This document shows, one piece after another, positions 3,815 through 7,527 of a stretch of 62,025 nt of DNA (the stretch's first letter is position 1; every line of letters starts with the position of its first letter). A program made the translations under genes and the position numbers. Under the pieces are notes generated by a model. It was not told the origin of the DNA, did no database searches, and worked only from the letters and a program-made list of their open reading frames with translations. Where the stretch lies: assembly GCA_021372615.1 (NCBI GenBank), contig JAJFUB010000065.1, positions 1 to 62,025 of the forward strand. The letters are read 5' to 3'. The stretch comes from a bacterium. GTDB taxonomy: Bacteria; Armatimonadota; Zipacnadia; Zipacnadales; UBA11051.

Positions 3815-4912
3815 ATGACCTCGCGTGAACGCCTCCTGGCCGCCCTGCGTCTGCAGCCCGTGGACCGTGTGCCGCTGCAGGTGCGCGGGGTGCGCTCCTG
3901 GGATGACCAGTGGGTCGCCACCCGCGACGCCAGCTATGGGCCGCTGATCGAGGCCGTGGCCGCACACGGGGACTATGTGGACGGCTGGGGCGCTCCGGCC
4001 GGGACCTTCTACTCGGCGACCCCGGTGCCGACCGAGGGCTGGACGGAAGATCGCGACGACTGGATCGCCCACTTCACGGTCTACCACACGCCCGGCGGCG
4101 ATCTGCGCACCATGTCGCTGTCGAGCAAGCGCGGCCTCCCCGGCATGCAGATGGAGTTCATGGTCAAGGACCTCGCCGACCTGGACAGGGTCCTCTCGGT
4201 GCCCTACGAGCCCTCGCGGCCCGACTGCTCCGGGTTCTTCGCGCAGGCCGAGCGCATGGGGGAGCGCGGCCTCGTCATGTGCGGCATCCACAATGCCATC
4301 TCCATGCTGCACAATCTGATGGGCTCGGAGCTGCTGGCGCTGTGGAGCATCACCGAGCGCGCGCGACTGGTGGAGCTGCTGTGGCTCTTCCACCGGCGCT
4401 GCCTGGACCTGGTCGAGTACCTGGTCAGCCAGGGCGTCGGGCCGTGCTTCGCCATGAACGGGGAGGAGTACGTCACTCCCCCGCTGCATTCACCGCGCGA
4501 CTTCCGCGCGTTCGTGGTCGAGCCGGAGCAGGACCTGGCGGCGGCCATCCACCGGGCGGGGCGCCTGCTGCACATCCACTGCCACGGCCCGCTGGGCGAC
4601 GTACTGGAGGACTTCGCGACCCTGGGCGCCGACTGCCTGCACCCGCTGGAGGCCCCCCCGCTGGGCGATGTGACGCTGGCGGACGCCAAGCGCCGCATCG
4701 GGGCCCGCATCTGCCTGGAGGGCAACATCCAGATCGGGGACCTGTACGCGGGGAAGACGGCGGACATCGCGGCGCAGGTGCGGCACAACCTGCAGGTGAC
4801 GGGCGGGCAGGGCTACATCATCTGCCCCACCGCCTCCCCGCACACGACGGTGCTGAACGAGCTGACCGTGCGGAACTACCTGGCGATGATCGAGGCTGCG
4901 GCGCAGGCGTGA
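3815..4912 (+). CDS. Uroporphyrinogen decarboxylase-like (MtaA/CmuA-type) protein A
   Basis: This 365-aa protein starts [20 protein letters not shown], the usual opening of the UroD-like TIM-barrel family. Around residues 253-258 it has HIHCHG, then [13 protein letters not shown] and a late GNIQIGDL strand, matching the metal-site region of the methylcobamide:CoM methyltransferase branch, not the haem enzyme. No other haem gene is nearby. Such proteins often move methyl groups between corrinoid proteins and thiols, but many family members in glycan-degrading bacteria are uncharacterised. It is more divergent than the paralogues at 8868 and 13541. The ATG follows GAAGGAAGAAG. It is divergent from the prepilin gene with only 98 bases between the two starts. 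Confidence 0.8.
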
Positions 4913-4997: not shown

Positions 4998-6557
4998 CTA
5001 GCGCTCCGCCGCATACTCCGATAGGCGCTCGATAAAGCGACTGACGGGAGCATCCGGGGTGCTTGCCAGAGCGAGTGCCATCTGGGTAGTCAGGTCGAAC
5101 GATGCCGCATCGCGCACGACCACATCCGCAATGCATGCACCATCGCAGGTGTCTGTCGCGTCGATGAGAATGTCAAACAGAGGCACGTCATCATCGTCCC
5201 GTGCAGTGATCACCCACGTGAATCGAGGGAGGAAGGCAGGAAGGAGGCGTGCCTTCTCTGCGGCAGGCAGGGAGGCGTCCTGCCGCCATTCCCGCTTCAG
5301 CTCGGAGAGCATTCTCAGCTCGATGCCCCAGTTGGAGGCACGCGGTCTCGGCAGCTCGATGGCCTGCGCCAGCGCGGTAAGGAGACAGTGCAGGCGATCA
5401 ACATCCCTGATGAGGTGTCTCGCGCTCAGCCTGATCTTGTGGTACACGGGAACCACGGCATATAGCGGAACCGCGACAACATTAGCGACCCCAGATCTCT
5501 CGCCATTGCCATCTAGCCAACTGGTCGTGAGCACAGTGTGCTCCGTCGGTTGTGTGTCACCCGATGCTTGCACTTCGGCGCTTGTCACGGCCATCCTGGC
5601 GAAGGGCCCAATCTGGTCATCATGCGCGTAGACCTTGCTCACCCGGCTGCCGCGCCAACAGCCCTCTAGGCTTGCACCAGTGCTGAAACCAGACAGAGTC
5701 ACCGCATGCAGAGCGGGGCCCTGCGGCAGGTTCAGCAGTTCAACAAGCAGTACCACCGGAAGGCCCCCGGACAGATAGGCCTGCACGACGGTCTTGAAGT
5801 CGGCCTCTGGTTGGGCCGGGAAGCTGAACAGCTCCGCATCCAGCCCGACAGCACGGCATGCCTGGCAGATCTCCTCAGTGTTGAGGCCTTCCGATGGGAA
5901 CACACGTCCGAGCCTCCCACTGGAGACAGCGGCCTGAGTAATCGCGGCCGGGGAGAGGATGGGGTGTTGGAAGAGCCGTCCAGTTGCCTGGAAGGCACTC
6001 CACAGCGCACTCGTGGCACAGGCCGCTACGCCATGGTCCTGTTCCTGGAAGGCCAACGATTCCACCGACAGCTCAATGCCAGCCACATGGGCCTTGTAGC
6101 CAACAAGTGCGGGGTAGTAGCGACGAGACCCGTCACCGTCAGGCGGGTAGGTCTTCAGACACGTACGACCAAAGAACATCTGCGGCAGTGGCTTGATGAC
6201 AACGAAGCCCAGGTAGGCATTGAGAAGGAGGTCAGTGAGGCCCTGCCCCGATGCTCCGGCCACGATGCAATCTATCTGCTCCTGCGAGAAGGCCTCACCG
6301 AAGAAGTGGATGCGACTGCAGAACCTCTCGTAAGGGCGGAAACACCTGACGTAGTACGCGGCATGCTCCTCCAGGTAGTCCCGGTCGACATAGCGCGTCT
6401 CGACGATGAAGCACTTCGCTGCCATGGCCGTTAGGTAGCCACGCAGGTAGTCGTCCTGCATCTTCCTCTGCACGACAGACAGACCCGTCTGTGCGTGCTC
6501 TGCGATCTGCTGCTGCAGTAACTGGTGTTCATAGGGGAATACGACGAACTGGCTCAT
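4998..6557 (-). CDS. Unknown ~519-aa protein with papain/C39-like cysteine peptidase core
   Basis: I do not recognise this protein as a named family. Residues about 171-190 read FQEQDHGVAACATSALWSAF, which resembles the Gln (oxyanion)...Cys start of papain-fold and C39-like peptidases, with candidate nucleophile Cys180. GPALHAVTLSGF supplies a candidate His284 and VYAHDDQIGPF a candidate Asp near 313-314, in the correct order and spacing for a Cys-His-Asp triad. The N-terminal 160 residues (helical, FRPYERFCSRIHFF) and the C-terminal 150 match nothing I know. There is no signal peptide or membrane helix, so it is probably cytosolic. The start is ATG 6557 (or GTG 6560), with GGGGG about 10 bases upstream. 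A perfect 14-bp inverted repeat lies just upstream and a 49-aa gene precedes it. Base composition looks less GC-rich than its neighbours, consistent with transfer. Confidence 0.7.
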   Translation of the reverse strand: MSQFVVFPYEHQLLQQQIAEHAQTGLSVVQRKMQDDYLRGYLTAMAAKCFIVETRYVDRDYLEEHAAYYVRCFRPYERFCSRIHFFGEAFSQEQIDCIVAGASGQGLTDLLLNAYLGFVVIKPLPQMFFGRTCLKTYPPDGDGSRRYYPALVGYKAHVAGIELSVESLAFQEQDHGVAACATSALWSAFQATGRLFQHPILSPAAITQAAVSSGRLGRVFPSEGLNTEEICQACRAVGLDAELFSFPAQPEADFKTVVQAYLSGGLPVVLLVELLNLPQGPALHAVTLSGFSTGASLEGCWRGSRVSKVYAHDDQIGPFARMAVTSAEVQASGDTQPTEHTVLTTSWLDGNGERSGVANVVAVPLYAVVPVYHKIRLSARHLIRDVDRLHCLLTALAQAIELPRPRASNWGIELRMLSELKREWRQDASLPAAEKARLLPAFLPRFTWVITARDDDDVPLFDILIDATDTCDGACIADVVVRDAASFDLTTQMALALASTPDAPVSRFIERLSEYAAER

Positions 6558-6577
6558 CACGCGCTACCCCCAGATGG

Positions 6578-6611
6578 CACAATGGCCGATCTGCAGCGAT
6601 CGGCCATTGTG
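6578..6611. promoter_or_regulatory. Perfect 14-bp inverted repeat before the peptidase-like gene
   Basis: CACAATGGCCGATC at 6578-6591 and its exact complement at 6598-6611 enclose a 6-base loop. On the reverse strand the repeat ends about 20 bases before the start codon and about 7 bases before the GGGGG ribosome-binding site. It could be an operator or an mRNA hairpin that limits translation of the downstream gene. There is no T-run, so a simple terminator is less likely. Confidence 0.6.
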
Positions 6612-6640
6612 AGCTTCGTGCATCGCAACGGCGGGTGTAC

Positions 6641-6790
6641 CTAGATGCTCACACGGCGTGTCATATCCTCTGGCCTCATGCGCAGACGCCGCTCTATCTG
6701 CTGAGCTCGCCGCGCGGCCTCCTTGGCGGCGATGCGGATCTTCTCCGCCACCTCTGGGTTCCTGACCTTCTCCATCGACTTCGCGTCCAT
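6641..6790 (-). CDS. Small basic helical protein, 49 aa
   Basis: An ATG at 6788-6790, preceded by a strong GGGAGGGGAG ribosome-binding site, opens a 49-codon frame: MDAKSMEKVRNPEVAEKIRI, then a helix-forming Ala/Arg/Gln stretch, ending MTRRVSI. It is strongly basic and predicted helical, with no cysteine and no signal peptide. It lies 83 bases upstream of the peptidase-like gene on the same strand, and the pair is bracketed by the two perfect palindromes at 6578-6611 and 6893-6939. It could be a regulator, an antitoxin-like partner or a peptidase substrate; nothing in the sequence decides between these. The good ribosome-binding site and context support a real gene. Confidence 0.55.
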   Translation of the reverse strand: MDAKSMEKVRNPEVAEKIRIAAKEAARRAQQIERRLRMRPEDMTRRVSI

Positions 6791-6892
6791 GCTACTCCCC
6801 TCCCGCTTCTGTCACCAGCGGCCGCAGGCGTCGTTGCCTGGGCGTTGAGACATTGCCTGACACCGAGCAGGACTCACACAGAGAACGCGCGA

Positions 6893-6946
6893 GCGTGCGG
6901 CTGACGTGCTACGCGCAGCGTAGCACGTCAGCCGCACGCGAGTCAA
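6893..6946 (-). promoter_or_regulatory. 22-bp perfect palindrome overlapping a possible reverse-strand promoter
   Basis: Two exact 22-base arms (6893-6914 and 6918-6939) enclose a 3-base loop, making this the longest perfect palindrome in the window. On the reverse strand TTGACT (6941-6946) stands 18 bases from TACGCT (6917-6922), a weak sigma70-type pair, so the palindrome would cover the -10 region of a promoter for the 49-aa gene and the peptidase-like gene. An operator for a dimeric repressor is the simplest reading. A cruciform or transcript hairpin is also possible. The rest of the 6791-7033 gap holds nothing else I can name. Confidence 0.5.
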
Positions 6947-7166: not shown

Positions 7167-7242
7167 GGGCCGTTAGCTCAGTTGGTAGAGCATCGGACTT
7201 TTAATCCGAGGGTCGTAGGTTCGAACCCTACACGGCCTACCA
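7167..7242 (+). tRNA. tRNA-Lys (UUU)
   Basis: This is a 76-base cloverleaf with D-arm TAGCTCAGTTGGTAGAGCA, anticodon loop CTTTTAA (anticodon UUU), T-arm GTTCGAAC and encoded CCA. The acceptor stem is GGGCCGT with ACGGCCT, so position 1-72 is a G-U wobble instead of the usual G-C. It is the first of four tRNAs read from the promoter at 7034. Confidence 0.95.
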
Positions 7243-7259
7243 GACGTCAGCGGCGCCAT

Positions 7260-7334
7260 GGCCCCATGGTCTAGCGGTTAGGATACGGCCCTTTCAAGGC
7301 TGAGGTAGGGGTTCGACTCCCCTTGGGGCTACCA
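7260..7334 (+). tRNA. tRNA-Glu (UUC)
   Basis: This is a 75-base cloverleaf starting GGCCCCATGGTCTAGCGGTT, the typical tRNA-Glu opening, with anticodon loop CTTTCAA (UUC), T-arm GGTTCGACTCC and encoded CCA. Its acceptor stem also ends with a G1-U72 wobble. It lies 17 bases after tRNA-Lys. Confidence 0.95.
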
Positions 7335-7348
7335 CCAATCTCGTCGGC

Positions 7349-7424
7349 GGGCGGGTAGCTCAGCTGGTAGAGCGCATGCTTTACACGCATGATGTCACAG
7401 GTTCGAGTCCTGTTCCGCCCACCA
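7349..7424 (+). tRNA. tRNA-Val (UAC)
   Basis: This is a 76-base cloverleaf with acceptor GGGCGGG, D-arm TAGCTCAGCTGGTAGAGCG, anticodon loop containing UAC (TTTACAC), T-arm GGTTCGAGTCC and encoded CCA. Position 1-72 is a normal G-C pair, unlike the two preceding tRNAs. Confidence 0.95.
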
Positions 7425-7451
7425 CATAGCACGTCGCACCCACACAAGGCT

Positions 7452-7527
<76 letters not shown>

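Follow-up and report, generated by a model that had tools for sequence, protein, structure and literature searches.

Genes and features of the locus

The locus lies in a 62,025-nucleotide stretch of bacterial DNA, referred to here as the window, and consists of two genes in series on the minus strand. The upstream gene (6641..6790, read from 6790 to 6641) encodes a 49-amino-acid protein. It is followed, after 80 nucleotides, by a gene for a predicted papain-like cysteine protease (4998..6560), which is 520 amino acids in length from a GTG at 6560 or 519 from an ATG at 6557. The protease gene was identified from its ORF, an AlphaFold (AF2) model, fold matches, and relatives. Both ORFs are present as described in an initial annotation made from the DNA letters alone.

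A known named family is excluded for the pair, with nothing above cut-off in Pfam, NCBIfam, PADLOC, PHROGs, or the PDB sequences. PADLOC has no match for either window protein and gave a single weak stray match (DruE, E 5e-4) among 13 members. The pair was not found described in the literature, though supplements and, for the most part, subscription journals were outside the coverage.

Two perfect palindromes had been reported to bracket the genes. Both exist, but one is intergenic and the other is upstream of the small gene, so that no bracketing occurs. The intergenic one is a perfect inverted repeat forming a hairpin with a 14-bp stem (6578..6611, minus strand) and a fold z of -2.55, and is a putative attenuator or terminator. 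The other (6893..6939) is 47 nucleotides in length, with 22-bp arms and a 3-nucleotide loop, lies between the small gene and a divergent tRNA cluster, and lacks a T tract. Each is found once in the 6.4-Mb genome, which argues against mobile-element ends or dispersed repeats.

Nine loci have a hairpin between the two genes. It carries a T tract and resembles an intrinsic terminator after the small gene in L012, L013, L015, L019, L021, L083, and L084. The terminators of L012 and L015 were missed by a simple scanner and are visible in folds, while that of L019 was read from the sequence, where the hairpin codes a read-through linker. A strong intergenic hairpin without a T tract is present in the window and in L038, its nearest relative (z of -2.55 and -2.63). 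From the seven T-tract terminators it is inferred that the small protein is probably made in excess over the protease. This excess, which the intergenic terminator suggests, cannot be universal because over half of the loci have the genes only 2 to 36 nucleotides apart, with no room for a terminator.

The G+C content of positions 4998 to 6946 is 61.5%, against 67.7 ± 1.8% for 1,950-bp windows, and is the minimum of the whole window. The lower G+C noted initially is thus borne out. The tRNA cluster (Lys, Glu, Val, and Phe) is at 7167-7527, upstream of the small gene and on the opposite strand. The pair sits beside this cluster in the window; in the closest relative the pair and the cluster are on separate contigs. 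The cluster, whole or in part, was matched in most genomes of the same family. No neighbour protein of the window was matched beside it in four fetched stretches of those genomes, so an empty site could not be demonstrated, and the cluster was rejected as a conserved home of the pair. The window, L002, L037, L061, and L083 have tRNA or tmRNA genes close to the pair. In L002, a Zixibacteria contig, a tmRNA gene (3882-4237) is located approximately 290 nucleotides upstream of the small gene. The neighbourhood in the window contains no integrase or defence gene, and the neighbours look ordinary.

Predicted fold and catalytic residues of the protease

The protease was modelled from the window protein aligned with nine relatives, ten sequences in total (pLDDT 83, pTM 0.86). 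Residues are numbered from the 519-amino-acid form. The model contains a papain-like core at residues ~139-375 that is closest to staphopain and the C39 peptidases. The top Foldseek matches are TDE0362 (E 4e-5) and staphopain (E 7e-5). By VIA-align the best solved-structure match is staphopain C, with a Z of 16.3 over 172 residues. The C39 domains of PCAT1 and ComA follow at Z 13-14.5, the phytochelatin synthase-like Alr0975 at Z 14, IdeS at Z 13.8, and UfSP/ZUFSP at Z 12-12.7.

The Gln/Cys180...His284...Asp313-314 arrangement proposed initially is present and is invariant in nearly all relatives. All four codon positions are on the minus strand. Gln173 (6039..6041), the oxyanion-hole position by analogy, is invariant in 38 of 38 aligned members. 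Cys180 (6018..6020), the predicted nucleophile, and His284 (5706..5708), the predicted general base, are each kept in 37 of 38. Asp313-Asp314 (5616..5621), the predicted third triad residue, is kept in all 38. The order Gln, Cys, His, Asp is conserved in 37 members, the sole exception being an E. coli island allele in which Cys and His are both changed to Tyr. A dN/dS of ~0.16 was obtained by counting synonymous and non-synonymous changes in two close pairs.

By its predicted fold and its residues, the protease is assigned to clan CA (papain-like); proteolytic activity itself is only inferred. The initial annotation would have been refuted by a model lacking a papain-like core or by relatives lacking the Cys and His, and neither was encountered. 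At the level of profiles the resemblance is weaker. The best Pfam match of the window protease is PF13529 (Peptidase_C39_2), which at 13.3 bits (E 0.12) is below the gathering cut-off of 24. The L021 protease scores 22.4 bits, and the profile is matched by 5 of 13 relatives, with a best E of 3.9e-5.

The protease shares with the C39 and Peptidase_C39_2-like enzymes (PCAT1, ComA, LahT) the papain-like core and the order Gln-x6-Cys, His, Asp. C39 peptidases recognise a leader composed of a helix and a C-terminal tail, and the small partner likewise has a helix and a C-terminal tail. Unlike these peptidases, the window protease is a soluble protein of 520 amino acids with N- and C-terminal domains and no fused transporter, and the pair has no conserved Gly-Gly site and no cargo, the partner ending at its tail. 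No ABC domain is present in the protease. The protease is not a member of the C39 exporter family. Maturation of a bacteriocin or signal peptide by a C39-type peptidase, to which a small gene beside a C39-like peptidase could point, is accordingly regarded as highly improbable. The missing double-Gly and the two extra domains both weigh against it, as does the absence of an ABC transporter, fused or noted beside the protease, with the reservation that neighbouring exporters were not exhaustively surveyed.

The staphopain/staphostatin pair is alike in that a cysteine protease has a partner. Staphostatin is an intracellular inhibitor paired with the cysteine protease staphopain, which is secreted. 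It is a beta-barrel that binds the active site, whereas the small partner here is predicted, at low confidence, to be helical. Sequence identity between staphopain and the window protease is 10-13%.

The E. coli island allele (L083, 12004-14052 of NZ_CP032989.1) is a natural pseudo-protease, with Cys to Tyr and His to Tyr changes, and is present in 19 of 5,426 E. coli genomes. Its protease ORF and small gene are both intact. It could represent either a degenerated copy or a decoy. The triad is intact in L084, from E. coli strain R2. The proteases of L012, L015, L019, L021, L083, and L084 have an additional region of ~180 amino acids at the C-terminus. In the three of these that were read (L012, L015, and L083) this region contains a GHPxLTG...ARIxGE...SGRYS pattern, and it has no Pfam match.

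The small partner protein

A small ORF, mostly of 44-91 amino acids, is located directly upstream of the protease relatives on the same strand. In the QEQD clade, which has 25 tree rows and support of 99/96, a small gene precedes the protease in 25 of 25, so the small gene, whose absence from relatives would have counted against the initial annotation, is conserved. Twenty-two were found by the first pass and three (L036, L061, and L079), initially masked by a long frame or the start choice, on re-inspection. In two related rows, L014 and L063, the small ORF is present and its tail differs.

A leave-one-out test was made with a profile of the C-terminal 42 residues of the small ORFs, one locus being held out each time. 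In 13 of 25 loci, against 0.08 expected, the held-out ORF outranks every other stop-to-stop segment there. Adjacency, and in part a similar tail, guided the choice of the tested ORFs, which makes the control the more reliable figure: no first rank arose in any of five sets of random control segments. The window ORF ranks 1 of 1,015 segments (E 9e-4) and, in another version of the test, 1 of 445 small ORFs (E 7e-5). As far as profile evidence from sequence can establish it, the 49-amino-acid ORF is a real gene, beyond chance. The small gene and the papain-like protease gene form a real, previously unnamed unit.

The small proteins have in common their length, a helix by prediction, and, in nearly all clade members, a tail at the C-terminus. 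The tail in the window is MRPEDMTRRVSI-COOH (6644..6679, minus strand), and relatives have tails such as IKPEDLQRRVTI, RVDPADLHKPVTL, and SNPESLKRVVKL. It is of the type h-D/P-x-x-x-L-x-x-x-h-S/T-h and terminates at or near the last residue. The part upstream of the tail is not conserved. The small protein had been characterised as basic, which is correct for the window copy (net charge +6) and is not a conserved trait, the charge among relatives being -16 to +13. A role as a basic nucleic-acid binder was rejected on these grounds. The small proteins have no conserved Gly-Gly site, and no signal sequence or transporter linked to the pair was noticed.

The position of the tail bears on whether the small protein is a substrate. 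The protease might clip it near the C-terminus, or its helix might be a recognition leader, with an active peptide or toxin freed upon a trigger. The conserved tail beside a cysteine protease of C39-like fold is compatible with this, as are terminators that favour a high output of small protein, and C39 peptidases are known to recognise a helix and an extended tail. Against it, the conserved residues are at the very C-terminus, so that cleavage past them would free little, conservation is lacking further upstream, and neither a transporter nor a signal sequence was noticed. A substrate role is unlikely, without being negligible. Since nothing follows the tail, an inhibitor or plug suits the small protein better than a precursor does.

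Gating of the protease by this tail is inferred by analogy. C39 peptidases recognise a helix and then an extended tail, which is held in the active site. In L019 a natural read-through fusion, with the stop read as Gly, was folded. Its small part is predicted to be helical at low confidence (pLDDT about 28-63), and no usable docking on the protease was obtained. For this reason the docking step rests on analogy alone.

Distribution, genomic contexts, and proposed role

Carriers are present in 11 of 291 genomes of the phylum of the window, in 10 of 395 of the phylum of a Flavobacterium carrier (some being members of a second clade described below), in 7 of 298 of the order of that carrier, and in 20 of 5,426 E. 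coli genomes. Four carriers are on plasmids (P. aeruginosa, Hymenobacter, Mesorhizobium, and Shewanella). The scatter, at mostly 25-50% identity, indicates repeated transfer, and points to a sporadic and mobile pair that crosses very different bacteria, with relatives in several phyla. A tblastn search of 50,697 phage records with the window protein and that of L015 gave no matches, and an origin in phage genomes was rejected, although several IMG/VR contigs carry the protease.

The pair of L021 is in a P2/Fels2-like prophage, with the replication gene gpA on one side and the portal gene on the other. The gpA-gpQ spot is an antiviral hotspot of P2-like phages (PMC9122126). This relative is therefore located in a known defence hotspot; such a location has not been shown for the window locus. 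L083 belongs to an island at tRNA-Pro in E. coli that also carries integrases, a relaxase, and an ABC-three-component system. In L013, from Hymenobacter, caspase-domain genes flank the pair on both sides. Defence by caspase-like or gasdermin-activating proteases is alike in having a protease as the proposed executioner in a mobile defence context, and unlike in that the protease family is another one, there is no gasdermin, and no sensor domain was recognised.

Type III (ToxIN-like) and type II toxin-antitoxin loci also resemble the pair, with a small upstream element, a terminator, and a larger effector, and with phage-defence and plasmid contexts. The likeness is met in gene order only, a small gene adjoining a larger effector gene, as there are no expression data on toxicity or neutralisation. 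In the pair, a conserved protein takes the place of the RNA repeat or of a recognised antitoxin that binds DNA, and a protease that of the nuclease. The pair could still be a plasmid or island addiction unit that mainly maintains its element. Plasmid, island, and prophage locations agree with this, and a small upstream gene with a terminator recalls antitoxin-first operons. The exact siting in the P2 defence hotspot, the repeated multiubiquitin neighbours, and the retention of the pair on chromosomes with no visible mobile element, the window included, do not, and an addiction unit is considered improbable.

The multiubiquitin neighbours are genes for multiubiquitin, ThiF-E1, E2, and DUF6527 that directly adjoin the pair in L012, L014, L063, L077, and L078, on three separate tree branches. 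Multi_ubiq is present in 21 of 395 background genomes. With this adjacency in five loci of three lineages, and with a fold that also matches UfSP/ZUFSP (see above), the protease might be a deubiquitinase-like peptidase working with bacterial multiubiquitin conjugation systems. In a search that included a positive control, Multi_ubiq was, however, present in only 5 of the 18 carriers tested and absent from 13, including the genome of the window. The link is thus not obligatory, and dependence on multiubiquitin was rejected. The gene order is also convergent in four of the five loci, the transcription units are separate from the pair, and the operons of L077 and L078 already hold their own JAB-type domain. 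A deubiquitinase-like role is quite improbable. In L077 (6081-8930) and L078 (5984-8873), the operon adjoining the pair is a compact bacterial ubiquitin-like one, in which multiubiquitin is fused to a Prok-E2_E domain and has a JAB-ThiF fusion and a DUF6527-like protein as neighbours.

The established part comprises the papain-like core with its conserved Gln/Cys/His/Asp-Asp residues, the small partner gene, the mobility, and the defence-type placement of relatives. The pair is probably a new protease-based defence or self-destruct switch, the mechanism being inferred. Among the three roles suggested initially, the best fit is a defence or toxin module built on a regulated protease, and peptide maturation is less likely in the absence of a fused transporter, a Gly-Gly site, or cargo past the tail. 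The explanation favoured, tentatively and with less than even confidence, is a mobile two-gene unit in which an inhibitor gates a papain/C39-like cysteine protease that works inside the cell, in defence or abortive infection. It is possible, to the same limited degree, that the pair works like a toxin-antitoxin-like defence unit of this inhibitor-gated kind. Under the inhibitor-gated explanation, the intergenic terminator would yield the small protein in excess, its helix would dock on the protease, and the free C-terminal tail would sit in or near the active-site cleft and hold the protease in check. Phage infection, or loss of a short-lived partner, would release the protease, which would cleave phage or host proteins, such that phage growth is stopped or the cell is killed.

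The fold and triad, the conservation of the small gene with its control, the terminators, the sporadic carriage, the mobile and defence contexts, the low G+C, and the dN/dS value are counted in favour. Counted against are the lack of experimental data on toxicity, protease activity, and phage protection, the low-confidence fusion model of L019, the loss of Cys and His in the E. coli island allele (19 genomes), the closely spaced loci without terminators, the second clade without a small gene, and the window neighbourhood without an integrase or defence gene.

A more far-reaching claim, which remains doubtful, is that the pair is a categorically new immune unit. In it, a cytosolic papain-like protease would be permanently gated by a leader-like micro-protein without cargo, whose tail plugs the active site. 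Stoichiometry would be set by the terminator. In several phyla the protease would act as executioner once infection triggers it, in some cases together with bacterial ubiquitin-like conjugation. If the inhibitor-gated explanation is true, a switch made of a protease and a micro-protein joins the known bacterial immune strategies, being widespread yet missed by the models of Pfam, NCBIfam, PHROGs, and PADLOC. The switch would be a tractable example of protease gating by a micro-protein that bears a tail, and would explain pairs of 'hypothetical proteins' in E. coli, Pseudomonas, Shewanella, and Bacteroidota. A possible link between a papain-like peptidase and bacterial ubiquitin-like systems would also become testable.

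The second clade (L022, L064-L068, L080, and L082) is well supported. It has the Gln/Cys/His/Asp-Asp set intact, with the motif HSSQD, and no small gene with the tail motif. A triad kept without the small gene indicates that other modes of control exist. In L082, a Cys-containing ORF of 49 amino acids is located 2 nucleotides upstream of the protease gene instead.
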